Source: Ianthella basta
Taxonomy: Eukaryota > Porifera > Demospongiae > Verongiida > Ianthellidae
Direction of reading: 5' to 3'
Length of the DNA stretch: 64,000 nucleotides
NCBI GenBank assembly: GCA_964019415.1
Contig: OZ025890.1
Span: 909,458 to 973,457, forward strand
Both the position numbers and the translations under genes were made by a program. This document shows, piece after piece, positions 6,201-58,000 of the stretch. Under the pieces are notes generated by a model that saw only the letters and a program-made list of their open reading frames with translations, did not search any database and was not told the DNA's origin. The first letter of the stretch is position 1; every line of letters starts with the position of its first letter.

Positions 6201-9200
6201 GGCCCGCGTGCGAAGCGCCAGGGCCTCTATATCGGTTTCCTAGGTGTTCTAAATCCAGTAGACACTGAAGGAGCTCGGTATAAGGTGTTTAGACTATGAT
6301 AGCAACCAGCGTCAATACGGGGAAGGACCGCGCTGGCCAGTTCTACCGAGAAATGACGACAGAAGGTAGCCGAGTAGTCAAACGGCAGCGTAAACTGCGC
6401 GGAAACGACCCTGCGAAGCCCAGCTGCCGTGAAGTACCTCGGAACGTTGCTAAAGTTAATTTCGCTTCAAGCTTGTCGCGGCTACGTTGTCGAAAATTTG
6501 CTTTAAAGCGCCAGAAGCTACCAGAGGTAGTATAAGTTGAATCAGAGATGGTATAAGTGAAATCAGAGATGGTATAAGCAATTTAGAACACCTCCATTGG
6601 ACCAATCAGATTACAGCAATTTGTTGCATCATAGTCTAAAGCATTGGTATATACGAGTGGGGTTGTGTGTTTGAAGTGTTGGATTGTGTCCCCACGCACA
6701 TACGTAGGTCCATCCATGTGTTTGAATGGAGGCAACTGCAGTATCTATGGTTACTGCAACTGTCCTTTTGGCTTCACTGGTCAATTCTGTGAGACAAGTA
6801 AGCTTGGACTTGTGGTGGTGTTGGTGGATGTACGTAGTTGTGTCATCACTGTGTCTCCACACCTCTTAGGGCTTACAGTGTGCAGTAACAACACCATTTG
6901 TTACAACAATGCAACTTGTGAGAATGGGCGCTGCGTCTGCTCTGGTCCGTACACTGGATACAACTGCTCAACTGAGATTTGTGAGTGCTTGTCAGTGGGT
7001 GCATGTGCTGAGTGGTAATGTACATTGTTGAGGTATTAACACCAACTTCACTGCGTATGCTGTGAGTTGTACAAATGTATGGTGTGGGTGTGACAATGTT
7101 GGCTGATTGTGCTCAGGTGACCCACCCTGTCAGAACAACGCCAGCTGCTATCAAGGTCGGTGCTCTTGTAGTGTGGCTTTTACAGGAGAGACTTGTGAAA
7201 CTGGTAAGTCATTGACAATCTCCTACAGCGTGTAGAGGATTGTCACATGAAACAGAGTAGATCCAGTGCCAAACTTCCCATGTCTGTCTTGTTCCCATAT
7301 CATTTGATTGTACCCCCTCCCCTCCCCTCCCCTCCCCCCAGCTCTTGGTGTGTCCTGTGGAGGCTACTACTGTTTCAACAGCGGCTCTTGTGTCAATGGC
7401 TCATACTGTCAATGTGTCAGTCCTTACTCTGGGCCGTATTGTGACAACATTGCATGTAAGTGGTGGAGCCCAAGCTGGATTAGAGTGCTTCAAGTTGTTG
7501 TATATTCTGTTCAAGGAGTGTCCTCCTCCTTCAGGTGATCCCCCTTGTCAAAATGGTTCCTGCTACAATGGCACTTGTTCCTGTTACTATGGCTACACTG
7601 GACTCCGCTGTGACACACGTGAGTGTGTACTGTACTGTACATGGCTGGGCTTTATAGGGTTAACAGGGTTCGGGTTAGGCTTAGCAGAGTCTGCTTCTCA
7701 TCTGAACATCACTTTTAGTCGGACATGTTCTTCACACACAAGTCATGCGATCACAGATTGCACAACAAGGTGTCTGGAGGTATTCAAATGAATTTTGTAT
7801 ATTTTATCTGCTTGAACTATTACATAGAGCAATTCTACAGAATATTAGGATATTGTCAGTCTATGGAAGCTAATTGACCTAATTACTTATTTGCTATTGA
7901 AATATCCTTTTATAAATCCATCTGAATATCTGTGTGGTGCAAGAATGGTGGTCATCAAACACTACAGTCATCACCTCATTCGCCGCAAGGAATGCACTCT
8001 GCTACATGCTACATGGTGATGGCCTGTATTGGCTACCTGGGTCCTGATGAGCAACCTGCTGTCTTACTAATCTGGCTCCTTGTTAAAGTAGCTCTTCTAT
8101 TGCTGTTTGTGTCATTCATCCATCCACACTGTCAAAACCTGCCACCAATCCCCTCCAGTGGACAATACTCATTGGCCACCATTGCTCCACCTTGATCTGG
8201 TAGTTGCGGCCTCAATTAGCCCAAGTACATACATTAGCCTAGCCCAGCTCCACATCAAGTGTTACCCGATTGATTGTCATCTCCAGTGTCATTGCTGAGT
8301 TCAAATGATGTGAATGTGAATAGCTAAAGCTAGGCTGCTTCAGGGTGCACTCTCCGCTTTATGGCATAGCTGAAATGTACTTTGGCTACTACTTCCACTT
8401 ACAAAGCTGTAGCCGTCTGGTGGAGAGGGTATGTGCATGAACTGTGAGTTGCGCTGCAGTAAGCCCATTTGTTATGAGTTTGGTAGCCATCTAAGTGATA
8501 GTGTGCCAGTTGTCAACAGCATTTGTATCTGGAATGAGATTTTCAGAGTAATGAGCATTGGACATGGCAATGATATTTCTGTTATTCTGTGCAATGCCAT
8601 TAACTTCATGGCAGGGGATTGCCTGTCCTTACTCACCACTTCATTTTACCCAAGTTGCTTTCTCCCTTACTATAGCACTCCCCACTTGTGGTGGTACTTT
8701 CTGCTACAATGATGGAGTATGCATCAATGGATCCTGCCAGTGTCGATACCCTTACACTGGATTTGACTGCACAGGCAGGATCAGTAAGCATACTTATCTT
8801 CAAATGACTGTTTCAGTTGCTAGCACTGTACTGTACAACAGGTTTGATACAGTCATTTCAGGGGTTTAGTCCTGATTGTCATCTGTGCTCTGCACTCAAC
8901 CATGTGAAAAATGTATTGGAATAGGTAGATTTGCACGTGCTCCATTTGAGACTACTATGCGCATGAGAATTTGATATCCCAGATGCTTTAACTCACATGA
9001 CTGAGTGCAGAGCAAGTTGGACAATTGATACACAAACCCCTGAATGATTGTGCCAGTTCATTAGCGACCTCGACGCTAAAGGGCTTCAGTAGTGGGGACC
9101 ACACTCTAGTCCTCCCCCAGCAAGTGACCAGGAAGGTCACACTGTGCCTGGAGGTGGAGTGCAACCTGCATTCTTATCCATCGAGAAGAATGTGTGTATT

Positions 9201-35295: not shown

Positions 35296-38200
35296 ACTGA
35301 TGTTAAGCCCACCTCTGCACATCCTCGTCCTGAAGCACCCGCACCTCGTCGGAGAGAACAGTGTCTGGGTTGTTCTTTATCTTCTCGTATTGGAAGGCCT
35401 GCATCCTTGTGAACAACTTCTGCATGCTTAGCTTCCTGCTCCTCAGCTGGGTCCACTGAAGAGGACAGGAGGGGGAGGGGCAGGAGGGGGAGGGGCAGCA
35501 CGGGGAGGGATGGTAGGGAAGGGGTGCGAGGGGAGGGAGGGGGTGGGAGGGTAAGTGTCAGATATTAGCAATGAGGTGTGAGGATGCACACATCCAAAAG
35601 CACACCTTCTCGTCCCACTGCCATATCTTCCACAGATCATCCTCAGTCAACTCTGGGTCAATGCACTCCCGCCGATAGGTGGCAATGAAAGGCACCTGCA
35701 CACACGCACGAGCACAGGAGATTCAGTGTGAGGTGCGGTGAGTGTGAGGGAGTGGTGAGGGCAGAAGTGAGGTGAGGTGGGGTGAGGTGAGAGTGGAGAT
35801 TCACCTCAAATGAGTGCTTTCTCATGAACTCAAGAGCACCCTTGATCTTTGGCACACACGAGGCAGGCTTGGATGGCTCCTCATCCCAGTACCCAGTGTT
35901 CTGGGGAAGGTGGGACTGTGTGTGCGTGTGTGTGTGTGTGTGTGTGCGTGTGTGTGTGTTGTGTGTGTGTTGTGTTGTGTTGTGTTGTGTTGCATTGTGT
36001 GTGGAAGTAGGAGAAAAGACATGTGACAAACTCTCACACTCACAACCACACAGTGGGACCACCGATCCTTAATTTACTGAGGTCAGCATTGAGGAGCACC
36101 TCCTCCGCTCCGCTCCATACATACCTGCTGGCTGATGGGAGTGGTGCAGAAGGCTTGGTTGTAGATCCACTCAGCCTCCTCCTCCCACTCTGCCTCGTCT
36201 CCCTCCAGCACTGGGCAGACACGCAGCTGCAAGGAGAGGTAACACACACACACAAACATATAGTGAACATGCACCTCTATCAATACAGCCACCAATCTGC
36301 AACATCATCACACAGTGGGGTGTGTTCACTGATGTACACACAGTGAGGTGTGTTCACTGATGTACACATAGTCAGTAGATACTAGCGAACTACATCTGAT
36401 CACCCTTCTGTATTTTATATATTTGCACAGTTATGTAGATCCCAGACAATCATCGTTTCCATAAAATTCAATATAATAATTAGTTCTGGGTCAAACCACT
36501 GTTTACACAGCCCACAGAATAAGCCGATAATATGGAGAAATGTTTGGATTTTTAATGACATACACAATGTCTCACACATGGCACTCTGCTTAGGGAAACT
36601 CTAAATCCTGTTTTGCACTGATAAACATCCTGTCAGCATAGTGCAACATAGTTCCACTTTCACTGTATGATCAGAAAACAGGGGGAACACCTCTTCCATC
36701 TTGCAATTATTATACATTGCTCCAGTCTCTATATAAACAGAACAGCTGAGAGCAGCCACAGTTCCTTGCGAGTGTAATTGCAAGTGAAGACCAATGACAG
36801 AAATGGGCATTCTAAAGAGTTTGTTCGTTCTCTGCTGCGCTGTGGTTGTCATGGGCAACAAACAAACCAACTGCAGTCTCCCTGCCTCCTCTCCAATGTG
36901 TTCTGTTCTTCAGGGACCTCCAGGAAGAGATGGGAGGGATGGGTTGCCAGGAAGGGAAGGACCTGCAGGACCACCTGGTACACCTGGCATCTCTGCATTT
37001 GATATAAAGACCATCAGTGACCAGATCAGAGATGAGTTCTTGAAAGATGTTGACAGCAAGCTGAGCAAGAGCAACAGAAAGTGCCACGACCTAGGACGCT
37101 TCTCCCACCTCCCTGCTACCTCATGCCAAGAGGTCTACCAGTGCAACCAAGACGCACCGTCTGGAGAGTACTGGATCAATGTCACACACGGGAACAGCAT
37201 GGTGATCCGTGAAGTGTACTGTGACATGGAGAGTGTTCATTGTGGCCACAGAGGGGGGTGGATGCGAGTGGCCTTCTTCAACATGTCCGACACTGCCTAT
37301 TCCTGCCCTGCCCCTTTAAGAACAGCCACTAACCAGGGGAAACGACTGTGCACTAGGTCAGTTGACAGACCGTTTTCATCAGTGATCTTTCGCACACACG
37401 GAGTACCCTACACAGCAGTATGTGGTAGAGCAGTGGCATACCAGTATGGGTACACAAATGCATTTTATGCTGCAGCACAAGGTACCCGTTATCATTCCAT
37501 CAATGATCCTTATGTGGATGGCATTTCCATCACTCATGGACAACCGAGAAAGCACATCTGGACGTATGCAGCAGGAAGGGCTAAGACTGACGACTCTCGA
37601 TTTCAGTGCCCTTGTTCCGCTCTGGATGCAACTAAACCACAACTATTTGTGGGAGAACACTATTACTGTGCTGAAGGAGCTCCGAACACTCCCACCAGTG
37701 CACGCTATTACCTGGATTCTCCCCTCTGGACTGGCAAGGACTGTCTACGAACCAGCAACTGCTGCACTCCAAGTGGCATGCCGTGGTTCTGCCGCACCTT
37801 ACCACAGCCAACCACTGACGACATTGAAGCGCGTTGGTCCTCTGACCAGGACCTGGCCAACGAGGCTGTCGCCACAGAACTGCTGGAGATCTTCATCAAG
37901 TAACCTGCCTAGCTGCAGACACTGCTAGTAGTGAACACACCATACATACATACATTAGGCACAGTATAGAACACCTGGCTGTACCACACATCTACAACAC
38001 ATAGTGAGTAGGGGTAGGTCAACACATTGACACTATTCAGGAATTGTATGCCTTTCTGTTACAGTTATTGCATTCATTAAACTGTCTGAAAATTTGAGAA
38101 ATTCAATTGATATTACGCTGTGCATGCAAAAATACACTTGCCAGAAGCTGGGTGTTACTGAACACTTGCCAGAAGCTGGGTGTTACTGAACACTTGCCAG

Positions 38201-41200
38201 AAGCTGGGTGTTACTGAACACTTGCCAGAAGCTGGGTGTTACTGAACACTTGCCAGAAGCAGGGTGTTACTGAACACTTGCCAGAAGCTGGGTGTTACTG
38301 AACACTTGCCAGAAGCTGGGTGTTACTGAACACTTGCCAGAAGCTGGGCGCTACTGAACACTTGCCAGAAGCTGAGTGCTACTGAACACTTGCCAGAAGC
38401 TGGGTGCTACTGAACACTTGCCAGAAGCTGGGTGCTACTGAACACTTGCCAGAAGCTGGGTGCTACTGAACACTTGCCAGAAGCTGGGTGCTACTGAACA
38501 CTTGCCAGAAGCTGGGTGCTACTGAACACTTGCCAGAAGCTGGGTGCTACTGAACACTTGCCAGAAGCTGGGTGCTACCGAACACTTCACATTAGTGTAT
38601 CATTCTGCTATGATACCTGCATGTATACATACTCAGTACTTAATCAAAACATGTCCCGACATAGTCAGGCGTCGCTGGGTCACACGACGCCTGTTTAGTC
38701 TGGATGCTGTGCATTATTGAAACACTGACATTCATCAACACAGAATTCATGCAAATTCTACACTATTTCACATTACAATAATTTGTGATATGACACATAA
38801 GATAGAGGCATTAAGCAGCAATAAACACTAGGAGGTTGTGGTACAGGCTGCAAGTGGTCTCAACATCCCACTCACCACACAGCAACTCACGCACGGTGTT
38901 GAGGCTGCCCTACACTTTGCTACGTGTGTGCATATTCGCAGCATTCCATTCGGGACACATCGATTGTGCAAGAGTCACATGGGCACCTCATGAACCAGGA
39001 GCTGTTCGTCATCAGCAGGTGCCACCTGACTGCTCAACATAGCAATTTGCGCTGTACACTACATCTCACCCTTCATTACAGTTGTCCATTGGTGTTTCGC
39101 ACTGTAGACAGCTAACTGCTTTCACCATTCCAATGACATCATTGGCACGATGTGGCCCAAGCACTGTATTCCAATCCCTCAAGGGTTGCATGCTGCCCTT
39201 CATGGTTAACATGATTTAGACATAGTCTGGCTTGCTATCTCCTTTGTTTGTCAGCCAGATATAACCAATCAAGACAGAGGCTAGCTATATTGGCCAAAAT
39301 GCGCTTTGCCGCATAAATTTTGTTTCGCTTCATACTATTCATCCTGAATAACTTTTAGTGAGGCTAAAAACACTTTAGGGACTGCTTAAGTGGCAGCCCC
39401 TGAAGAGCAATTAGAAAACCACAGCAAGACCACAACATCCTGAGTTACCAGCCCACAACTGGTTTATTCCACTGTAAGAAGACTGAGCTGCAGAGAGTGA
39501 CCACAGTTCCCTGTGACTGCAAGTGAAGAGCACTGACAGAAATGGCCATCCTAAAGACCTTGTTCCTCATCTGCTGTGCTGTGGTTGCCATGGGCAACAC
39601 ACACCCCAACTGCAGTCCCCCCACCTCCCCTTTAATGTCTTCTGTACTTCCAGGACCTCCAGGGAGAGATGGGAGGGATGGGTTGCCAGGGAGGGAAGGG
39701 CCTGCAGGACCACCTGGTACACCTGGCATCTCTGCATTTGATATAAAGACCATCAGTGACCAGATCAGAGATGACATCTTGAAAGATGTTGACAACAAGC
39801 TCAGCCAGAGCAACAGAAAGTGCGATGACTTGGGACACTTCTCCCACCTCCCTGCTACCTCATGCCAAGAGGTCTACGAGTGCAACCAAGAAGCACCGTC
39901 TGGAGAGTACTGGATCAACGTCACACACGGGAACAGCATGGTGATCCGTGAAGTGTACTGTGACATGGAGAGTGTTCATTGTGGCCACAGAGGGGGGTGG
40001 ATGCGAGTGGCCTTCTTCAACATGTCCGACACTGCCTATTCCTGCCCTGCCCCTTTAAGAACAGCCACTAACCAGGGGAAACGACTGTGCACTAGGTCAG
40101 TTGACAGACCGTTTTCATCAGTGATCTTTCGCACACACGGAGTACCCTACACAGCAGTATGTGGTAGAGCAGTGGCATACCAGTATGGGTACACAAATGC
40201 ATTTTATGCTGCAGCACAAGGTACCCGTTATCATTCCATCAATGATCCTTATGTGGATGGCATTTCCATCACTCATGGACAACCGAGAAAGCACATCTGG
40301 ACGTATGCAGCAGGAAGGGCTAAGACTGACGACTCTCGATTTCAGTGCCCTTGTTCCGCTCTGGATGCAACTAAACCACAACTATTTGTGGGAGAACACT
40401 ATTACTGTGCTGAAGGAGCTCCGAACACTCCCACCAGTGCACGCTATTACCTGGATTCTCCCCTCTGGACTGGCAAGGACTGTCTACGAACCAGCAACTG
40501 CTGCACTCCAAGTGGCATGCCGTGGTTCTGCCGCACCTTACCACAGCCAACCACTGACGACATTGAAGCGCGTTGGTCCTCTGACCAGGACCTGGCCAAC
40601 GAGGCTGTCGCCACAGAACTGCTGGAGATCTTCATCAAGTAACCTGCCTAGCTGCAGACACTGCTAGTAGTGAACACACCATACATACATACATTAGGCA
40701 CAGTATAGAACACCTGGCTGTACCACACATCTACAACACATAGTGAGTAGGGGTAGGTCAACACATTGACACTATTCAGGAATTGTATGCCTTTCTGTTA
40801 CAGTTATTGCATTCATTAAACTGTCTGAAAATTTGAGAAATTCAATTGATATTACGCTGTGCATGCAAAAATACACTTGCCAGAAGCTGGGTGTTACTGA
40901 ACACTTGCCAGAAGCTGGGTGTTACTGAACACTTGCCAGAAGCTGGGTGTTACTGAACACTTGCCAGAAGCTGGGTGTTACTGAACACTTGCCAGAAGCT
41001 GGGTGTTACTGAACACTTGCCAGAAGCTGGGTGTTACTGAACACTTGCCAGAAGCTGGGTGTTACTGAACACTTGCCAGAAGCTGGGTGTTACTGAACAC
41101 TTGCCAGAAGCTGGGTGTTACTGAACACTTGCCAGAAGCTGGGTGTTACTGAACACTTGCCAGAAGCTGGGTGTTACTGAACACTTGCCAGAAGCTGGGT

Positions 41201-44200
41201 GTTACTGAACACTTGTCAGAAGCTGGGCGCTACTGAACACTTGCCAGAAGCTGAGTGCTACTGAACACTTGCCAGAAGCTGGGTGCTACTGAACACTTGC
41301 CAGAAGCTGGGTGCTACTGAACACTTGCCAGAAGCTGGGTGCTACCGAACACTTCACATTAGTGTATCATTCTGCTACTATACCTGCATGTATACATACT
41401 CAGTACTTAATCAAAACATGTCCAGACATAGTCAGGCGTTGCTGGGTCACACAATGCCTGTTTAGTCTGGATGCTGTGCATTACTGAAACACTGACATTC
41501 ATCAACACAGAATTCATGCAAATTCTACACTATTTCAGATAACAGTAATTTTGTGATATGACACATAAGATAGAGGCATTGAGCAGCAGTAAACACTAGG
41601 AGGTTGTGGTACAGGCTGCAAGTGGTCTCGACATCCCACTCACCACACAGCAACTCACGCACGGTGTTGAGGCTGCCCTACACTTTGCTACGTGTGTGCA
41701 TATTCGCAGCATTCCATTCGGGACACCTTAATTGCACAAGAGTCACACGGGCACCTCATGAACCAGGAGCTGTTTGTCATCAGCAGGTGCCACCTGACTG
41801 CTCAACATAGCGATTTGCGCTGTACACTACATCTCACCCTTCATTACAGTTGTCCATTGGTGTTTCGCACTGTAGACAGCCAACTGCTTTCACCATTCGA
41901 ATGACATCATTGGCACAATGTGGCCCAAGCACTGTACTCCAATCCCTCAAGGGTTGCATGCTGCCCTTCGTGGTTAACAAGATTCAGGCTTAGTCTGGCT
42001 TGCTATCTCCTTTGTTTGTCAGCCAGATATAACCAATCAAGACAGAGGCTAGCTATATTGGCCAAAATGCGCTTTGCCGCATAAATTTTGCTTCGCTTCA
42101 TACTATTCATCCTGAATAACTTTTAGTGAGGCTAAAAACACTTTAGGGACTGCTTAAGTGGCAGCCCCTGAAGAGCAATTAGAAAACCACAGCAAGACCA
42201 CAACATCCTGAGTTACCAGCCCACAACTGGTTTATTCCACTGCAGGAAGACTACATAATCAAGCAGAGCCGCAGAGAGTGACCACAGTTCCCTGTGACTG
42301 TAAGTGAAGAGCACTGACAGAAATGGACATCCTAAAGACCTTGTTCCTCATCTGCTGTGCTGTGGTTGCCATGGGCAACACACACCCCAACTGCAGTCCC
42401 CCCACCTCCCCTTTAATGTCTTCTGTACTTCCAGGACCTCCAGGGAGAGATGGGAGGGATGGGTTGCCAGGGAGGGAAGGACCTGCAGGACCACCTGGTA
42501 CACCTGGCATCTCTGCATTTGATATAAAGACCATCAGTGACCAGATTAGAGATGACATCTTGAAAGACGTTGACAGCAAGCTCAGCCAAAGCAAAAGAAA
42601 GTGTGATGACTTGGGACGCTTCTCCCACCTCCCTGCTACCTCGTGCCAAGAGGTCTACCAGTGCAACCAAGACGCACTATCTGGAGAGTACTGGATCAAC
42701 GTCACACACGGGAACAGTATGGTGATCCGTGAAGTCTACTGCGACATGGAGAGTGTTCATTGTGGCCACAGAGGGGGGTGGATGAGAGTGGCCTTCTTCA
42801 ACATGTCCGACAACACCTATTCCTGCCCTGCCCCCCTGAGAATGGCCACTACTCAGGGGAAACGACTGTGCACTAGGTCGGTTGACAGACCGTTCTCGTC
42901 AGTGAACTTTTCTACACACGGAGTACCCTACACAGCAGTATGTGGTAGAGCAGTGGCATACCAGTATGGGTACACAAATGCATTTTATGCTGCAGCACAA
43001 GGTACCCGTTATCATTCCATCAATGATCCTTACGTGGATGGCATTTCTATCACTCATGGACAACCGAGAAAGCACATCTGGACGTACGCAGCAGGAAGGG
43101 CTAAGACTGACGACTCTCGATTTCAGTGCCCCTGTTCCGCTCTGGATGCAACTAAACCTCAAGCATTTGTGGGACAACACTATTACTGTGCTGAAGGAGC
43201 TCCGAACACTCCCACCAGTGCACGCTACTATCTGGATTCTCCCCTCTGGACTGGCAAGGACTGTCTACGAACCAGCAACTGCTGCACTCCAAGTGGCATG
43301 CCGTGGTTCTGCCGCACCTTACCACAGCCAACCACTGACGACATCGAAGCGCGTTGGTGCTCTGACCAGGCGCTCAGCAATGAGGCTGTCGCCACAGAAC
43401 TGCTGGAGATCTTCATCAAGTAACCTACCTAGCTGCAGACACTGCTAGTAGTGAACACACCACACATACATACATTAGGCACAGTATAGAACACCTGGCT
43501 GTACCACACATCTACAACACATAGTGAGTAGAGGTAGGTCAACACATTGACACTATTCAGGAATCGTCTTGTATGCCAAAAATGAGAAATTGTACTGCCA
43601 CTTTATGCTGTTTGCAGAAACACCTTGCCAGAAGCTGAGTGGTAGTGAACAATTGACATTTGCATGTTTCTACTACAGTAATTGCAACTTCTGGACTACT
43701 GCATATCAATTATATAATTATAAGGCCACCTGTGCATGCTGCAGAAGGTGACCACCAGAGGTGCAAGTGGAGTATTTGGATTACTTGATGAAGGGAAAAC
43801 ACCACCAGCACAAATAGATGATGCTCAGGGGAACTGGTAACACGCAGTGTTGGCACAAGTTGGAGTGCAATGCAGAAAGTATGCAACTTGCACATAGGCA
43901 GTGACAAGGTTCATAGTATCTGTTGTGCACACTACAACTTGTGCTGTCGCTGCTGCCTAGTGCCCAGCCTTCAGTAACTTGGGCTGGTGGAATTTCCCTT
44001 CCATCCACCAGCACAGATACTATGTGAACCAGCACTTGTGGTGGTCACCCTTTGAAACGTGCACTGGTGCATGGTCTTCATGGCCTACCACTCACTTGTA
44101 CTAACACACTTAACAAGAAAAGGCACGGTTAGACCAACCCCTACCCGGCCGCCGGCACGATGTAAGGGGGCAGTAACAACACCATGAAGGTGTTCAAGCA

Positions 44201-47200
44201 CCATCTGGTCCCACAAAAGGTGCAACAGTACTTGTTACGTTTATCTTCACTTATTAAGATGGTCTATGTACCATGATGACACGAATGAAAGACAACGTTC
44301 GGAACTACACAGGGTAAGGAAAGAAGGGGGGAAGGGAAAAATGGCAGTGAACTGGACCAGCACCGGCAACCTCCAGATCTTTAGCCGACCCTTTAGCAGC
44401 CGGGTCACTGGTCACCGCTAACAGCCACTGATCCATTCCCTCCTTATATAACAATGTGGGCGGGCTCTATCTAGAGTCTCCTTTGAAACTCCCACACCAG
44501 GCACTGACTAATCAGTGACACTCGGAAATGCTAATAGACCATCTTAATTAGCATTTCTGAGTCTCACTGATTAGTCAGTGCCTGGTAGGGCTCTTTGCTA
44601 TGTCCATTGCCCAGAATGGTCCAATTTGTTTATCAGCCATCTCTACAAATTACATCTTTTCAGATCACACCTATGAGGTCATTCACACTTGTCACCTCAT
44701 TCACACCTATGACAACACACCACAACCACAGGTTGCTGAAGGTGAGAGGGACTGGGCACCAGCACTGGCACAACTTGGAATGGGGATGCAGCAACAACAC
44801 AATTGGCACAAGGGCACCACTGTAAGCATTGCCAACTGCCCATGTGCAAGTTGCATACTGTCACTCCAAGTAAACTATGACAAAATAGGGTCCCTGAAAG
44901 GTGACGTCAGTGATGATGTCATAGTTATGCAACCCCCCCCCCCCCCTCTCATAGCATTCCTGACATATCTGCAACTGGCTCATTTCACTGAAAGGGAGAC
45001 TACTTTAACAGAACACCAGATAGCGACCACAGTTCCCTGTGATTGTAAGTGAAGAGCACTGACAGAAATGGTCATCCTAAAGGACCTGTTCCTCATCTGC
45101 TGTGCTGCGGTTGCCATTGGCAAAACACAACACAACTGCAGTCCCCCCACCTCCCATTTAAGGTCTTCTGCACTTCCAGGACTTCCAGGGAGAGATGGGA
45201 GGGATGGGTTGCCAGGGAGGGAAGGACCTGCAGGACCACCTGGTACACCTGGCATCTCTGCATTTGACCTAAACACCATCAGTGACCAGATTAGAACTGA
45301 GGTCTTGAAAGACATTGACAGCAAGTTTAACCAGAGCGAAAACAGGAAGTGCCAAGACCTGGGACACTTCTCCCACCTCCCTGCTACCTCGTGCCAAGAG
45401 GTCTACCAGTGCAACCAAGACGCACCGTCTGGAGAGTACTGGATCAACGCCACAGACGGGAACAGCATGGTGATTCGTGAAGTCTACTGCGACATGGAGA
45501 GTGTTCATTGTGGCCACAGAGGGGGGTGGATGAGAGTGGCCTTCTTCAACATGTCAGACACTGCCTTTTCCTGCCCTGCCCCTCTAAGAACAGCCACAAC
45601 CCAGGGAAAACGACTGTGCACTAGGTCAGTTGACAGACCATTCTCGTCAGTGAATTTTTCTACACACGGAGTACCCTACACAGCAGTATGTGGTAGAGCA
45701 GTGGCATACCAGTATGGGAGAACAAATGCATTTTATGCTACAGTGCAAGGTACCCGTTACCATTCCATCAATGATCCTTATGTGGATGGCATTTCTATCA
45801 CACATGGACAACCGAGAAAGCACATCTGGACGTACGCAGCAGGAAGGGCTAAGACTGACGACTCTCTTGTTCAGTGCCCTTGTTCCGCTCTGGATGCAAC
45901 TAAGCCTCAAGCATTTGTGGGAGAACACTACTACTGTGCTGAAGGAGCCCCTACATACATTCCCAACAATCAACGCTACTTTTTAGATTCTCCCCTCTGG
46001 ACTGGCAAGGACTGTCTACGAACCAGCAACTGCTGCACTCCAAGTGGCATGCCGTGGTTCTGCCGCACCTTACCACAGCCAACCACTGACGACATTGAAG
46101 CGCGTTGGTGCTCTGACCAGGACCTGGCCAACGAGGCTACTGCCACAGAACTGCTGGAGATCTTCATCAAGTAACCTACCTTGCTGCAGACACTGCTAGT
46201 AGTGAACACACCACACATACATACATTAGGCACAGTATAGAACACCTGGCTGTACCACACATCTACAACACATAGTGAGTAGGGGTAGGTCAACACATTG
46301 ACACTATTTAGGAATTGTATGCCATTCTGTTACAATTATTGCATTCATTAAACTGTCTGAAAAATTGAGAAATTCAATCATTATTACGCTGTGCATGCAA
46401 AAGTACACTTGCAAGAAGCAGGGTGTTACTGAACACTTGCCAGAAGCAGGGTGTTACTGAACACTTGCCAGAAGCAGGGTGCTACTGAACACTTGCCAGA
46501 AGCAGGGTGCTACTGAACACTTGCCAGAAGCTGGGCACTACTGAACACTTGCCAGAAGCTGGCTGTTACCAAACACTTGCCAGAAGCTGGGTGTTACTGA
46601 ACACTTGCCAGAAGCTGGGTGCTACTGAACACTTGCCAGAAGCTGGGTGCTACTGTACACTTGCCAGAAGCTGGGTGTTACTGAACACTTGCCAGAAGCT
46701 GGGTGCTACTGTACACTTGCCAGAAGCTGGGTGCTACTGTACACTTGCCAGAAGCTGGGTGCTACTGAACACTTGTCAGAAGTTGGGTGCTACTGAACAC
46801 TTGCCAGAAGTTGGGTGCTACCGAACACTTGCCAGAAGCTGGGTGCTACCGAACACTTGCCAGAAGCTGGGTGCTACTGAACACTTGCCAGAAGCTGGGT
46901 GCTACTGAACACTTCACATTAGTGTATCATTCTGCTATGATACCTGCATGTATACATACTCAGTACTTAACCAAAACATGTCCAGACATAGTCAGGCGTT
47001 GCTGGGTCACACAATGCCTGTTTAGTCTGGATGCTGGGCATTATTGAAACACTGACATTCATCAACACAGAATTCATGCAAATTCTACACTATTTCAGAT
47101 AACGGTAATTTTGTGATATGACACATAAGATAGAGGCATTAAGCAGCAATAAACACTAGGAGGTTGTGGTACAGGCTGCAAGTGGTCTCAACATCCCACT

Positions 47201-50200
47201 CACCACACAGCAACTCACACACGGTGTTGAGGCTGCCCTACACTTTGCTACGTGTGTGCATATTCGCAGCATTCCATTCGGGACACATCGATTGTGCAAG
47301 AGTCACACGGGCGCCTCATGAACCAGGAGCTGTTCGTCATCAGCAGGTGCCACCTGACTGCTCAACATAGCGATTTGCGCTGTACACTACATCTCACCCT
47401 TCATTACAGTTGTCCATTGGTGTTTCGCACTGTAGACAGCCAACTGCTTTCACCATTTGAATGACATCATTGGCACGATGTGGCCCAAGCACTGTATTCC
47501 AATCCCTCAAGGGTTGCATGCTGCCTTTCATGGTTAACAAGATTCAGGCTTAGTCTGGCTTGCTATCTCCTTTGTTTGTCAGCCAGATATAACCAATCAA
47601 GACAGAGGCTAGCTATATTGGCCAAAATGCGCTTTGCCGCATAAATTTTGTTTCGCTTCATACTATTCATCCTGAATAACTTTTAGTGAGGCTAAAAACA
47701 CTTTAGGGACTGCTTAAGTGGCAGCCCCTGAAGAGCAATTAGAAAACCACAGCAAGACCACAACATCCTGAGTTACCAGCCCACAACTGGTTTATTCCAC
47801 TGCAGGAAGACTACATAATCAAGCAGAGCCGCAGAGAGTGACCACAGTTCCCTGTGACTGTAAGTGAAGAGCACTGACAGAAATGGACATCCTAAAGACC
47901 TTGTTCCTCATCTGCTGTGCTGTGGTTGCCATGGGCAACACACACCCCAACTGCAGTCCCCCCACCTCCCCTTTAATGTCTTCTGTACTTCCAGGACCTC
48001 CAGGGAGAGATGGGAGGGATGGGTTGCCAGGGAGGGAAGGACCTGCAGGACCACCTGGTACACCTGGCATCTCTGCATTTGATATAAAGACCATCAGCGA
48101 CCAGATTAGAGATGACATCTTGAAAGATGTTGACAGCAAGCTCAGCCAGAGCAACAGAAAGTGCGATGACTTGGGACGCTTCTCCCACCTCCCTGCTACC
48201 TCATGCCAAGAGGTCTACCAGTGCAACCAAGAAGCACCATCTGGAGAGTACTGGATCAACGTCACACACGGGAACAGCATGGTGATCCGTGAAGTGTACT
48301 GCGACATGGAGAGTGTTCATTGTGGCCGCAGAGGGGGGTGGATGCGAGTGGCCTTCTTCAATATGTCCGACACTGCCTATTCCTGCCCTGCCCCCCTGAG
48401 AATGGCCACAACCCAGGGGAAACGACTGTGCACTAGGTCAGTTGACAGACCGTTCTCGTCAGTGAACTTTTCTACACACGGAGTACCCTACACAGCAGTA
48501 TGTGGTAGAGCAGTGGCATACCAGTATGGGTACACAAATGCATTTTATGCTGCAGCACAAGGTACCCGTTATCATTCCATCAATGATCCTTACGTGGATG
48601 GCATTTCTATCACACATGGACAACCGAGAAAGCACATCTGGACGTACGCAGCAGGAAGGGCTAAGACTGACACCTCTCGATTTCAGTGCCCCTGTTCCGC
48701 TCTGGATGCAACAAAACCTCAAGCATTTGTGGGACAACACTATTACTGTGCTGAAGGAGCTCCAAACACTCCCACCAGTGCACGCTATTACCTGGATTCT
48801 CCCCTCTGGACTGGCAAGGACTGTTTACGAACCAGCAACTGCTGCACTCCAAGTGGCATGCCGTGGTTCTGCCGCACCTTACCACAGCCAACCACTGACG
48901 ACATCGAAGTGCGCTGGTCCTCTGACCAGGTGCTCAGCAATGAGGCTGTTGCCACAGAACTGCTGGAGATCTTCATCAAGTAACCTACCTAGCTGCAGAC
49001 ACTGCTAGTAGTGAACACACCATACATACACACATTAGGCACAGTATAGAACACCTGGCTGTACCACACATCTACAACACATAGTGAGTAGGAGTAGGTC
49101 AACACATTGACACTATTCAGGAATCGTCTTGTATGCCAAAAATGAGAAATTGTACTGCCACTTTATGCTGTTTGCAGAAACACCTTGCCAGAAGCTGAGT
49201 GGTAGTGAACAATTGACATTTGCATGTTTCTACTACAGTAATTGCAACTTCTGGACTACTGCATATCAATTATATAATTATAAGGCCACCTGTGCATGAT
49301 GCAGAAGGTGACCACCAGAGGTGCAAGTGGAGTATTTGGATTACTTGATGAAGGGAAAACACCACCAGCACAAATAGATGATGCTCAGGGGAACTGGTAA
49401 CACGCAGTGTTGGCACAAGTTGGAGTGCAATGCAGAAAGTATGCAACTTGCACATAGGCAGTGACAAGGTTCATAGTATCTGTTGTGCACACTACAACTT
49501 GTGCTGCTGCTGCTGCCTAGTGCCCAGCCTTCAGTAACTTGGGCTGGTGGAATTTCCCTTCCATCCACCAGCACAGATACTACGTGAACCAGCACTTGTG
49601 GTGGTCACCCGCTGCAACGTGCACTGGTGCATGCCCTTCATGGCCTACCACTCACTTGTACTAACACACTTAACAAGAAAAGGCACGGTTAGACCAACCC
49701 TTACCTGGTCGCCACCATGATGTAAGGGGGCAGTAACAACACCATGAAGGTGTTCAAGCACCATCTGGTCCCATGAAGGGTGCAACAGTACTTGTTACGG
49801 TTATCTTCACTTGTTTGTCTAACCTTACTTGTTACAGTTATCTACACCTGCCATCTATCTTTCCTCTGTATTTTGGGCAAATGACGATTAAACATCAGCA
49901 CGGCGAGTATTGCTGACCAATCACAGATGAAGTGGTTGCTTGGTAACATCCGGATGCTGCTTGCCCAGTGCTGCTGATGAGGAGTGGTACTCTCCAAAAA
50001 GGCCTTCCAGCACAGTGGCAAAACTTTCAGCTTTTCGTCATCCTGGATGCAGAGGTAAGTGCCTTTTCTTGTCACTAACACATTTATTGCAGGTTTGCAT
50101 TGTGTGGTGGTGGCAACGATAGTTTTTGTACAATTGTATAAAATTAATAATAAGCTCAAATACGTATGAAGGCCTACATGGCTGAAATGTCCTATTTTAC

Positions 50201-53200
50201 TGACCCTTTGCTATGTCCATTGCCCAAAATGTTCCAAGTTCTTTATCAGCCACATAGCATTGACCCTGTACAACATTACTTCTTTTCAGATCACACCTAT
50301 GACGTCATTCGCACTTGCACTGGCACAAGTTGGAATGGGGATGCAGCAACAACACAATTGGCACAAGGGCACCACTGTAAGCTTTGCCAACTGCCCATGT
50401 GCAAGTTGCATACTGTCACTCCAAGTAAATTGTCACAAAATAGGGTCCCTGAAAGGTGACGTCAGTGATGACGTCATAGTTATACAAAAACTAACGTCCC
50501 ATAGCATTCCTGACGTATCTGCAACTGGCTCATTTCACTGAAAGGGAGACTACTTTAACAGAACACCAGATAGCGACCACAGTTCCCTGTGACTGTAAGT
50601 GAAGAGCACTGACAGAAATGGACATCCTAAAGGACCTGTTCCTCATCTGCTGTGCTGCCGTTGCCATTGGCAAAACACATCCCAACTGCAGTCCCCCCAC
50701 TTCCCCTTTAAGGTCTTCTGTACTTCCAGGACGTCCAGGGAGAGATGGAAGGGATGGGTTGCCAGGGACGGAAGGACCTGCAGGACCACCTGGTACACCT
50801 GGCATCTCTGCATTTGACCTAAACACCATCAGTGACCAGATTAGAGCTGAGGTCTTGAAAGACATTCACAGCAAGCTGAACCAGAGCGAAAACAGAAAGT
50901 GCCTTGACCTGGGACACTTCTCCCACCTCCCTGCTACCTCGTGCCAAGAGGTCTACCAGTGCAATCAAGACCGTCTGGACCGTCTGCACCGTCTGGAGAG
51001 TACTGGATCAACGCCACAGACGGGAACAGCATGGTGATCCGTGAAGTCTACTGCGACATGGAGAGTGTTCATTGTGGCCACAGAGGGGGGTGGATGCGAG
51101 TGGCCTTCTTCAATATGTCCGACACTGCCTATTCCTGCCCTGCCCCCCTGAGAATGGCCACTACCGAGGATAAACGACTGTGCACTAGGTCGGTTGACAG
51201 TCCATTCTCGTCAGTGAACTTTTCTACACACGGAGTACCCTACACAGCAGTATGTGGTAGAGCAGTGGCATACCAGTATGGGAGTACAAATGCATTTTAT
51301 GCTGCACAGCAAGGTACCCGTTATCATTCCATCAATGATCCTTATGTGGATGGCATTTCCATCACTCATGGACAACCGAGAAAGCACATTTGGACGTACG
51401 CAGCAGGAAGGGCTAAGACTGACACCTATCGATTTCAGTGCCCTTGTTCCACTCCAAATGCAACTAAACCACAACTATTTGTGGGAGAACACTACTACTG
51501 TGCTGAAGGAGCTTCTACATACATTCCCAACAGTCAACGCTACTTTCTAGATTCTCCCCTCTGGACTGGCAAGGACTGTCCACAAACCAGCAACTGCTGC
51601 ACTCCAAGTGGCATGCCGTGGTTCTGCCGCACCTTACCACAGCCAACCACTGACGACATTGAAGTGCGTTGGTGCTCTGACCAGGTGCTCAGCAACGAGG
51701 CTACTGCCACAGAACTGCTGGAGATCTTCATCAAGTAACCTACCTTGCTGCAGACACTACTAGTAGTGAACACACCATACATACATACATTAGGCACAGT
51801 ATAGAACACCTGGCTGTACCACACATCTACAACACATAGTGAGTAGGAGTAGGTCAACACATTGACACTATTGAAGAATTGTATGCCATTCTGTTACAGT
51901 TATTGCATTTTGAGGGCCTTCGTGGAAAGCCTAGCCAAATCACAGCTTGATTTAACTCTACTCTCTTACAGTACTCTCTCCTTGCAATATCTGAAAAATT
52001 TCACACACAAGAAAAGCGGGCATCTGCTAAAATATGCTAAAATTACATCATACAGTAGCAGCTGTTCACGTTACAGGTCATTGAAGCTGTTTGCTGTTCA
52101 ACCTGCACCAGTTTGGGCTTGTTTTGTTATTAGGGCATGCACTGATTGGCTAATTACATGCACAATTAGTCAGGTGTCGCTTGACCCTCCCCAGAAGTGG
52201 ATGGGTCAGGTACCATTGGATATAGCGACTTGTGCACAGTGTGACTACAGTTGCACTCCAATCAGATTGCTACATCACTATACACTACAACTTTACCTGG
52301 AACCTCTCAGGCAGGTCTGTCATGGCCATCATCTTGTCCTTGTCTGTGAGGTGCCCTCGCTCTAACTCACTCGGCTCATAGATCTGAACAGAGAAAACAT
52401 GGGCAGGTTACACCAGTAGCAATGGCATGTACACACCGACCCAAGTCACTCTGGGGACCAACCAGTAAGACTACTGCACTTGGGTTCACAAAAATACAAG
52501 CAAACAGTCTAAACGCTTAATGATTACGTTAGTGGTGGTTTCCAGAGTCGAGCACGCCAGCATTCGCAATTCTAACAAAATAGCACCACGATTTGATTAG
52601 TTCAGAAGAACTGATAGCCACTTACGTCATACACTGTTGTCTTCTTTTTCTTCTTCCTCTTGAGGGCCTTCCTCTGCAAGCGTTCAGCATCCAGTGCAGC
52701 CTCTCCATCACTCAGAGCCTACGTACACCCAGAACAAGGCACACTCTCACCTTCAGCAAACACACTCACACAGACTCTCACCCATACACAGGCTACAGTA
52801 GATATGCACACCTGAACTACCTTCACATTCTTAACCATTCATCTGCAGTTCTTCAGATAAGAACCAGAAAATTGACCAAACAGTACATTCCATACAAATG
52901 TGGCATTTTATGTTAGTGTTTAGCCTGATCTTACATATATTAATCTGCTGTGCTAGCAATAAAGTAACATAATCATGATCTTACACGAAGAAGGACTATC
53001 CTAGTCTGCTGCGCACACCATAATCATTCCACTTGCTCTATTATTCTACTGCACATCACTTTCATCTCACTCATCCTCCTGACCACCTACCCATCCCTCC
53101 CGCCCTTTCCCTGCCCACTTCACACCTCATCCACTCCTTCCTCCACCTCCTCCTCATCCGAGCTGAGATAGCTATCCTCCATCATTCGGTCCAGCTCCAT

Positions 53201-55050: not shown

Positions 55051-58000
55051 ATGGAGCTGCGGGCGCGGGCCCTAATTGTCCTTCTGTCGCTTGTTGGGTG
55101 TGCCACAGGACAGCTTAGTTTTTGTCCTTCAGGTTGTGATTGCTTATTTCATCCTCTCGTCCACTGCGACATGATGGTCAGCGGCTTTCCAGTCTTTGCA
55201 GCAGAAGACAAGCCAACAATTCAGGACCTGTAAGCCTCTACACTGAGCGGCGTGTACTGTCAAGCGTGTAGCTGCATGCATCAAGCGTATTTCTCTTCAT
55301 GTGCTTAATGGTATTTGAGCTTCATGTTATACATCTTCTATAAAGTCATTGATCAACTCTGTACTCTATTTTGTCAAGCATTAATAGCATTCAATAGTAG
55401 TAATCACTTTAATCAACCTTTCTGGACTCATCTTTTATTTGTAAATCTGTGTACCCATGTGGTTGTGGCTGTCCCTGTACTGTCAGGACCTGCACAGAAA
55501 CCCACTTATGTGGATGCTGCATTCCTTTCATCCAGCACACCATGCTTGCAACCACATGTCTTTATGTTCATCTGTATGTGCACATAATGGCATATACTTG
55601 TCTCCCCTCCCCCCCCCTCCCCCCCCCCCCACACACACACATACACACCTACCTGGTTTTTGCTTTCTTCCCATAGCTTCATCGCGGGTGGATCTGTGTC
55701 ATCCATTAACCGCTCCACCCTGGTTAACTATACCGGCCTGACAAGTCTGGATATCAGGTCTACAGGGTTGCAGTCCATTGCAGCCAATGCATTTGTGGAC
55801 CTTCCGGCATCGGCAACGCTGTGAGTGGTGGCTTGGGGAGTTGAGACGAATGTGTACTGATGCAGTGATACAGTGTGCTACAGTACGATGACTGCACATA
55901 CTTACCTCTAAGATGATGTATGCACATATTGTATGTTTGGCTTATTGTGCATTCACGCAGCAAACATGTGCTATAACTGCAGTGGTACAACACTTTAACC
56001 AAGACCTTTGTGGTCAAAATATTGCACTACTTCAAGTTTGCACGTTTGCTGCATGAACGCTCAATAGTGTTACTCCCTATCCGAAGCCACAGCAATAAGC
56101 CTCTATGATGTCATTGGCTAGTAGAGTTGGGTGTCTATGCCCAGTCACACTGAATTACGAATGTGAACAAGTATGTACATACAAAATGACATGTACGTGC
56201 ATTGCACCTTGTGCACTTGCCTATTTCCAGGAACTTTGATGGAAATGAACTGACAGAGTTAGTCTCTGACACATTTGCTGGCACAAACATTCGGTCTGTG
56301 TCCCTGTCCAATAACAGGATAGCTATGATTGCACCAGGAGCTTTTGCTGGCATACGGGCCTTTGGTACCATTAACCTGGTGGGTAACAATCTGGAAACTA
56401 TATCAGAAGGAGTGTTTACCTTGAGCTACCGCAATTTGTAAGTGAAGTCCTTATTACATGCACTTGCTGTGTATTATTCCACTTGCTATTATCTCACTTG
56501 CTATTATCTCACTTGCTATTATTCCACTTGCTATTAATCCACTTGCTATTATCTCACTTGCTGTTATTCCACTTGCTGTTCAACGCTATCATTTTCCTTT
56601 GGCTTGCTAAATGTAGGTTACTGGAGAGCAACCCATTTGTCTGTGACTGCCGTTTACGATGGCTTCCCAGCTATATAGCCACATTTGCCCCATTCCAATT
56701 TACTGGTGTCTGTAGTGAGCCCAGTGTCATTGCAGGGGCGAGCCTGGACAACCTGACACTTGACCAGCTTCTCTGCCAGTGTGATCCTCCTTGTGTGGAG
56801 GGTGTGTGTAACACCACAGTCGGTGTGTGTGAGTGTAGTGAGGGCTGGATGGGGGAGGCATGTGACATGCCATGTCCTAGTGACACTTACGGACAGAACT
56901 GTCAGTTTAGCTGTCAATGCGTCAACAGTGACATGCCTTGTCATCATGTCAATGGAACCTGCTTTTGCAACCCGGGCTATACTGGTGATAGATGTGAGGA
57001 AAGTGAGTTTGTACTACATTCTTAATCTCATCAGTATGTCTACACAGTATTATTATTATAACACTTACCTGACTGTTGCATACTTTAGGTTGCAGTGAAG
57101 GGTTCTTTGGGGACAACTGCAGGGAGGTGTGCCTGTGTCAGAACGGTGCTGCATGTCACTTTGTCACTGGGGAGTGTACCTGCACTATTGGCTGGAACGG
57201 GACCTACTGTGACCAGCGTGAGCATATGCTGCCAAACTCGGACACTGTGTATTTAATAAAATCCCTCTATTTGTGATGCCACTAGTCTTGTTCCTGGTGC
57301 AGTAGGCCCACTCACTGTCTGTTTCGCCTACCGCCTGCTCCTGCAGCCTGTGACCAGGGGTTCTATGGACTGGGGTGCACTGAAGTGTGCATGTGCGATG
57401 AGACGGGGTTCTGTGACCCAATGAATGGGACGTGTACATGTGAACCAGGCTACTTCGGGGCAGACTGCACACATAGTGAGTCTCTTGCTGCACACACGCA
57501 CACCACATGGGCATGCCAACATCTCTGCACACGTTGCACAAGCACACCAGCACTCTCACATTGCACAAGCACACCAGCACTCTCACATTGCACAAGCACA
57601 CCAGCATTCTCACATTGCACAAGCACACCAGCACTCTCACATTGCACAAGCACACCCGCACCCTCACATATTGCACAAGCACACCAGCACTCTCACATAT
57701 TGCACAAGCACACCAGCACGCTCATATATTGCACAAGCACACCCGCGCCCTCACATATTGCACAAGCACACCAGCACCTCTGCACATTCAATTCATGCGC
57801 ATGAGGGAACACATGCACACATTGACATTCTCATAGTCAACTGCACACATTTTCATTTACACTGGACATTCCACCACCATGTCTTCTGTGTACCCGTTGT
57901 TCACTGTCTCTTTTGCAGACTGCTCAGCTGCTTCTGAGTGTGCTACTGTCAATAGGGAGCCCTGCTCACTGACCACACCGGAGAACACCTGTGGACCCTG

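Follow-up and report, generated by a model that had tools for sequence, protein, structure and literature searches.

A collagen stalk ending in a globular head is the plan of collectins and C1q. Ficolins follow it too: they are secreted and have a short Gly-X-Y stalk and a C-terminal head that starts with a fibrinogen-like cap and is a full fibrinogen-related domain (FReD). Intelectins (X-type lectins) join such a cap to a C-terminal part that matches no fibrinogen; according to PMC6321704, those of placozoans are secreted, Cys-rich and organized in clustered families, and intelectins, unlike the family described below, have no collagen repeats. The cap also occurs in the C-propeptide (COLFI) of fibrillar procollagens, in which the triple helix is long.

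The window (the whole stretch of DNA analysed: 64,000 nt of contig OZ025890.1 of the sponge Ianthella basta) holds six tandem repeat units on the plus strand at ~36.75-51.8 kb, whose starts lie 2,735-2,815 nt apart in the six-copy repeat families reported (Table 1). Each of copies 1-5 is a single intact frame, 366-369 codons long, in which a leader of hydrophobic residues and then nine Gly-X-Y triplets can be read directly. Copy 6 is another matter: with a repeated 9-mer at 50969-50997, the stretch exceeds that of copy 5 by 14 nt, and the resulting frameshift leaves the copy in two open pieces. Thus the "six tandem intronless genes" of an earlier, sequence-only reading stand as six plus-strand units and five intact single frames; six intact genes are ruled out.

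Table 1. Coordinates of the array, its parts and the SPT6 intron that contains it (window positions)
Feature	Position	Strand	Remarks
SPT6 exon downstream of array intron	36125..36226	-	splice site and exon peptide
SPT6 intron holding array	36227..52296	-	16,070 nt, GT-AG; splice sites, with SPT6 exon peptides on both sides
Copy 1	36803..37903	+	intact, 366-codon frame from start used; in-frame ATG also at 36794
28-nt tandem repeat downstream of copy 1	38134..38587	+	
Leader just before ATG, copy 2	39499..39541	+	mostly conserved across the six copies and in the C22 relative
Copy 2	39542..40642	+	intact, 366 aa; last 209 codons DNA-identical to copy 1
28-nt tandem repeat downstream of copy 2	40873..41354	+	
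Copy 3	42323..43423	+	intact, 366 aa; reference copy
Nine Gly-X-Y triplets, copy 3	42434..42514	+	read directly; Pfam Collagen 21.4 bits, cut-off 27.2
Head part A, copy 3, residues 100-157	42620..42793	+	fibrinogen-like/COLFI/GGGWT cap
Head part B, copy 3, residues 158-366	42794..43420	+	no consistent sequence-family match; YVDGxSxTxGxPRxHxWT motif
Copy 4	45068..46174	+	intact, 368 aa
28-nt tandem repeat downstream of copy 4	46405..46914	+	
Copy 5	47883..48983	+	intact, 366 aa
Copy 6	50618..51738	+	frameshifted; open pieces at 50618-51037 and at 51031-51738
SPT6 exon sequence upstream of array intron	52297..52383	-	splice junction at 52297

The host is the housekeeping gene SPT6 (SH2_2 exons at C23:936281-937253), and the nesting of the array in one 16-kb intron of it holds up: the intron runs from 52296 to 36227 with the borders ..CCAG/gtaaag .. 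ttgcag/CTG, and the peptide of the upstream exon ends in ..LPERFQ. The remaining introns are short, as had been claimed: 34 of 36 exon anchors, which had been read by eye, were located, and no other gap between them is longer than 833 nt, these gaps being upper bounds for introns. Nesting in SPT6 is probably incidental and without special function of its own, because most of the family sits elsewhere in the genome.

A chance pattern is excluded by the array itself, by the dN/dS values and by the family elsewhere in the genome. Selection on the intact copies is purifying (dN/dS 0.15-0.42). Judged from their codons, copies 1 and 2 have recently exchanged sequence: there is no difference in the shared 3' part, dS is 0.03 in head part A and 0.14 in the Gly-X-Y segment, and it is 0.26-0.47 in the signal, N-variable and neck regions. 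(A technical note: a GT-like motif in the leader preceding the ATG was considered as a possible splice donor but abandoned, since GC stands there in copies 1 and 2 and in the C22 relative.)

The layout of collagen stalk plus head is supported by the nine triplets, which are perfect as read directly in the intact copies. Pfam Collagen scores 20.6-23.1 bits in these five and in copy 6 (first piece), under its cut-off of 27.2, and matches 18 of 25 family members at E<=0.1. The neck that follows had been called coiled-coil-like; in a simple heptad test against shuffles none of 28 necks, the five window copies included, passes at p<=0.05 (three do at p<=0.1), and a coiled-coil neck is unsupported. 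The "non-fibrinogen" head has to be divided. Its first ~50 residues are, by sequence match, a fibrinogen-like GGGWT cap common to procollagen C-propeptides and intelectins: NCBIfam NF040941 matches 24 of the 25 members at E<=0.01 (copy 3 scores 34 bits, cut-off 30), COLFI matches 22 of them at E<=0.1, and a head wholly unlike fibrinogen is ruled out. The last ~200 residues, to which the description still applies, have no consistent match in Pfam, NCBIfam, PHROG or PDB sequences.

Is the head nevertheless that of one of the known systems? Ficolins have the full FReD, whereas in the window family the cap alone matches: PF00147 (221 positions) gives four of the five intact copies 12.7-14.4 bits at E<=1 (cut-off 22) over ~41 positions, and finds one of 25 members at E<=0.1. 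The 141 Fibrinogen_C matches in the same genome are a separate set, without overlap with the family in the part compared (95 of the 141 against 49 of 173 places), and a full FReD is ruled out. Neither a C-type lectin nor a C1q/TNF-like head was matched at E<=1 in seven window frames, or at E<=0.1 among the families listed for 25 members; absence of a row from the VIA lists was not taken to exclude any family. Profile A1 matches intelectin-1 over profile positions 87-165 (E 5.7e-6), which places the intelectin cap in the family, and the match stops at about position 165.

The family is strongly expanded, as had been proposed: it occupies no fewer than 173 places, spread over 16 contigs of the 209.09-Mb genome, with local clusters, of which the window array is one small example. 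Some members without a stalk keep the conserved head. The last ~200 head residues also recur in Myxococcota: of 377 genomes sampled from this phylum, 16 carry them, including three known beforehand. The GGGWT proteins L068, L069 and L072 have the same cap and C-terminal domain, with a YVDGxSxTHG..RxHIW motif, and in alignment A2 they show 34-36% identity with the window head (L070, 30%; L071, 26%); no collagen stalk was seen in the Myxococcota proteins read, which have other N-terminal parts (MopE-type repeats in L069). Origin from phage or plasmid was rejected: tblastn with the copy 3 head found nothing at E<=1e-3 among 50,697 phage and 72,556 plasmid records; three scans of viral contigs (22, 2 and 4 stretches looked at) yielded no relative, and the best viral model in BFVD has E 2.1e-3, none reaching E<=0.001.

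Structure prediction, suggested earlier together with the HMM search that placed the cap, gives beta-rich AlphaFold models of the head with weak resemblance to procollagen C-propeptides and to jelly-roll carbohydrate-binding modules (CBMs). "Non-lectin" is not established: the models lean, weakly, towards carbohydrate-binding jelly rolls in their fold. The reading to which we give about an even chance is that these are secreted, collagen-oligomerized, lectin-like surface-recognition proteins with putative binding activity, analogues of ficolins and collectins with a different head. The copies encode small proteins made of leader, short Gly-X-Y stalk, linker with a cysteine, and a Cys-rich head in which the cap runs into a beta-rich, probably jelly-roll domain. 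Three chains might join through stalk and cysteines, so that three heads would present a multivalent face to sugars or similar groups on microbes, particles or the sponge matrix. The mode of working would be that of ficolins and collectins, and copy number together with small differences between heads would widen the repertoire; tandem duplication within the SPT6 intron produced the array. We infer a recognition or immune role: the family may serve the sponge in recognizing surfaces, for example microbial ones.

The main rival is a short-chain matrix collagen, whose head, a divergent procollagen C-propeptide, would chiefly trimerize the chains of proteins that build the sponge matrix. COLFI scores 28.5-30.5 bits in the window copies (cut-off 26.2) at the cap, and the best Foldseek matches of the window head are C-propeptides (whole-head E 5.8e-4). 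We consider this rival rather unlikely: the COLFI match spans just 43 of 233 positions, and the structural one amounts to three rows at E<=0.001 with TM about 0.3 and rmsd 11-14.5 A. In place of the long uninterrupted helix of fibrillar procollagen there are nine triplets, the longest single run among sampled members being 31; stalkless members conserve the head, bacterial relatives carry it without collagen, and Eph LBD and CBM folds are the better matches of the bacterial model.

Recognition might instead be directed at the sponge's own cells (cell-cell or self/non-self recognition in aggregation or allorecognition) and not at microbes. A large, clustered paralog family with sequence exchange between copies would suit that purpose; selection, however, is purifying and not diversifying, and no transmembrane segment beyond the leader was seen by eye in the window copies, which makes the proposal improbable. 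Or are the intronic copies a side array, scarcely used or silent, while the family does its work elsewhere? Copy 6 is broken, with dN/dS of 0.36-0.52 for its pieces against other copies; two of the three C22 relatives listed are truncated matches; and neither AATAAA nor ATTAAA occurs in the 500 nt that follow copies 3, 5 and 6. Against this stand the selective constraint on five intact frames and the largely conserved leader before the ATG, and we regard such a side array as very improbable.

Sponges, which lack adaptive immunity, live alongside dense microbes. The many members of the family, collagen-stalked or related, are concrete candidates for how sponges tell partners, food and foes apart. 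If the preferred reading, of lectin-like recognition proteins, is true, they would show that the ficolin/collectin plan was reached by a separate route. A bolder version is possible if somewhat doubtful: a further collagen-stalk recognition class that would combine GGGWT cap and jelly-roll CBM-like head, comprise well over 100 sponge germline genes, share its head with Myxococcota by ancient descent or gene transfer, and furnish a large multivalent surface-recognition repertoire. The bacterial relatives in any case raise the question of the head's origin, and part of the head lies outside the coverage of the family libraries searched. Similar unnamed proteins may occur in other sponges and cnidarians. 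No description of the family was found in the open-licence papers searched, where wording may differ; the terms fibrinogen, collagen and expansion are absent from PMC12723187.

Two observations concern the assembly. A 2050-codon frame at C2:946770, at first sight a giant fusion, is an artefact of unread bases, because the adjoining stretch reads N. The mtDNA contig is 21,233 nt long, with 25 tRNAs found, TGA read as Trp, and a gene order that we take to be demosponge-like.

The array is real and well described. Six plus-strand units, 2,735-2,815 nt apart from start to start, lie in one intron of SPT6, which the minus strand encodes (SH2_2 exons were detected by profile) and whose exon peptides run collinearly from 54.9 kb to 27.1 kb, with 34 of 36 anchors found; the intron that houses the array (52296 to 36227; 16,070 nt) has GT-AG ends, and the remaining inter-anchor gaps are all of 833 nt or less. 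The anatomy given by the sequence-only reading is upheld, with two exceptions: copy 6, counted there among six intronless genes, is frameshifted at a repeated 9-mer (the stretch is 14 nt longer than in copy 5), and the supposedly coiled-coil-like neck gave a negative heptad test. Copies 1-5 are single intact frames; direct reading gives copy 4 a stalk of nine triplets. All six copies and their closest relative, on contig C22, share most of the ~43 nt preceding the ATG. In their upstream blocks, copies 2, 3 and 5 resemble one another, as do copies 4 and 6; these two groups imply duplication in more than one step. A 28-nt minisatellite of 16-18 units lies downstream of copies 1, 2 and 4 only (none follows 3, 5 or 6).

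Minisatellites of the array (window coordinates)
Feature	Position
28-nt minisatellite after copy 1	38134-38587
28-nt minisatellite after copy 2	40873-41354
28-nt minisatellite after copy 4	46405-46914

By the Nei-Gojobori method, dN/dS is 0.15-0.42 across all ten pairs of intact copies and 0.19-0.26 (dS 0.49-0.59) between intact copies and the C22 relative. For copy 6, each of whose two pieces was compared, the values are slightly higher when set against the other copies (0.36-0.52); with C22 they are 0.18 and 0.25. Copies 1 and 2 have zero differences over their last 209 codons, yet their signal, N-variable and neck parts differ with dS 0.26-0.47 (the triplets with 0.14; part A, the first ~50 residues of the head, with 0.03), which points to recent conversion or unequal exchange. 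The fastest-evolving head windows, in a clade on contig C2, are loops with indels; dS is also high there, and no clear positive selection was seen.

The genome-wide family and the uncatalogued part B of its head (the last ~200 residues) are a larger finding than the array. The genome comprises 209 Mb in 96 contigs, the window lying on C23. (Its mtDNA contig, C96, of 21,233 nt, yielded 25 tRNAs, reads TGA as Trp, and has a gene order that we take to be demosponge-like.) When copy 3 was searched against the whole genome, 848 candidates yielded 112 scored matches, of which 8 carry internal stops; a C10 member as query gave 143 rows, 101 main ones being retained. Both searches score the best candidates only, so that these counts are lower bounds. 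Together they cover at least 173 distinct places, spread over 16 contigs (191 with 41 rows for COLFI, the procollagen C-propeptide domain, added), some of them truncated or broken, so that 173 is not a number of working genes. C23 holds 10 of the 173, and the other 163 are on other contigs: the SPT6 intron is one site among many, and no evidence of a functional link between array and SPT6 was seen.

Of 42 loci tried beyond the window (L014, L018-L038, L048-L067), 39 returned an open frame with head; under the motif filter none was found at L051, L062 or L067, the last having been taken for a COLFI match. The leader was not seen in the stretch read for L053, L054, L055, L060, L061 and L065. Stalks range from 0 to 39 triplets, counting runs of at least 3. 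In a tree of 47 head rows the window copies group with the C22 relative (100/98). Single-contig clades are seen for nine rows of C2 and for three of C17, whereas one clade of 13 rows mixes contigs. The array's nearest relatives (L014, L016, L017; C22:2.34-2.48 Mb) are an intact gene and, ~61 and ~77 kb from that gene, two matches that are truncated; a stalk-and-neck fragment was noted by eye upstream of the intact one. A 2050-codon frame at L055/L083 (C2:942000-949800) proved false, part of that stretch, beside a family member, reading N.

That the head is non-fibrinogen, as first proposed, is half right. Part A matches COLFI (28.5-30.5 bits; cut-off 26.2) and NCBIfam GGGWT (34 bits; cut-off 30) and, in a 25-member profile, procollagen C-propeptide (1.5e-7), intelectin-1 (5.7e-6) and angiopoietin-1 (0.029). 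Part B has no consistent family match: its best among PDB sequences is at E 0.57, and 23 members gave just scattered single-member hits when compared with Pfam, NCBIfam and PHROGs. True Fibrinogen_C domains make up a second large family of this genome, distinct from the first (141 matches; best 269 bits, positions 2-219), with no overlap between the 95 of them and the 49 family places compared. Many of the 141 are clustered, nearly full-length single open frames (C2, C9, C16, C6); one, C2:821796, sits 5 kb from a family member.

A family-profile scan of prokaryote contigs picked out 17 stretches, among which 5 are relatives, labelled Myxococcales/Myxococcota (3), Deltaproteobacteria (1) and Bifidobacterium breve (1), a bin in which we take the relative to be mis-binned. 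The last (L070; CALQBK020000282.1), by eye, lies next to MopE-like repeats and is broken by a stop. For part B of L068, another relative, 377 genomes were sampled from the phylum of L068; 16 contain it (E<=1e-8; at most 8 candidates scored per genome), 3 of the 16 known beforehand. The cap alone is commoner: the whole L068 head gives 69 matches in genome G001, most confined to about the first 75-100 residues. In L069 MopE-type repeats precede the head, and its cap matches Fibrinogen_C (24.9 bits, cut-off 22; positions 3-46); that of L068 scores 21.0 against COLFI, below cut-off.

The most likely working is one in which chains would trimerise via stalk and cysteines, and the trimers would bind outside surfaces multivalently. 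What the sequences themselves show is frames of secreted type that have a short stalk and a conserved Cys-rich head, are under selection and belong to a large clustered family. The head probably does more than trimerise, because stalkless members and the bacterial relatives retain it. Against surface recognition count the best Foldseek match (a C-propeptide), the weak fold evidence, the heptad result, the want of clear positive selection, and Nematostella, where expanded fibrinogen-related proteins have, in the part of that report available, another possible role, venom (PMC12549020). For it count, besides the retained head, the indel loops of the C2 clade and, from the available parts of two reports, the clustered secreted 'intelectins' of placozoans, whose FReD match is similarly short (PMC6321704) and which are expressed in secretory epithelium (PMC12013895). 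Also in its favour, sponges given microbial patterns alter the expression of fibrinogen-domain genes, in either direction, and of collagen-superfamily genes, the collagen-stalk family not being identified in the available parts of those reports (PMC6208332, PMC8242945).

Two further stretches of the window were noted by eye. Beside SPT6, 56387-57804 (+) holds open frames in which an LRR C-terminal cap seems to lead into EGF repeats (FVCDCRLRWLPSYIATF..., CECSEGWMGEACDMPC...); an EGF-like stretch at 7261-7791 (+) may be a second receptor-type gene.
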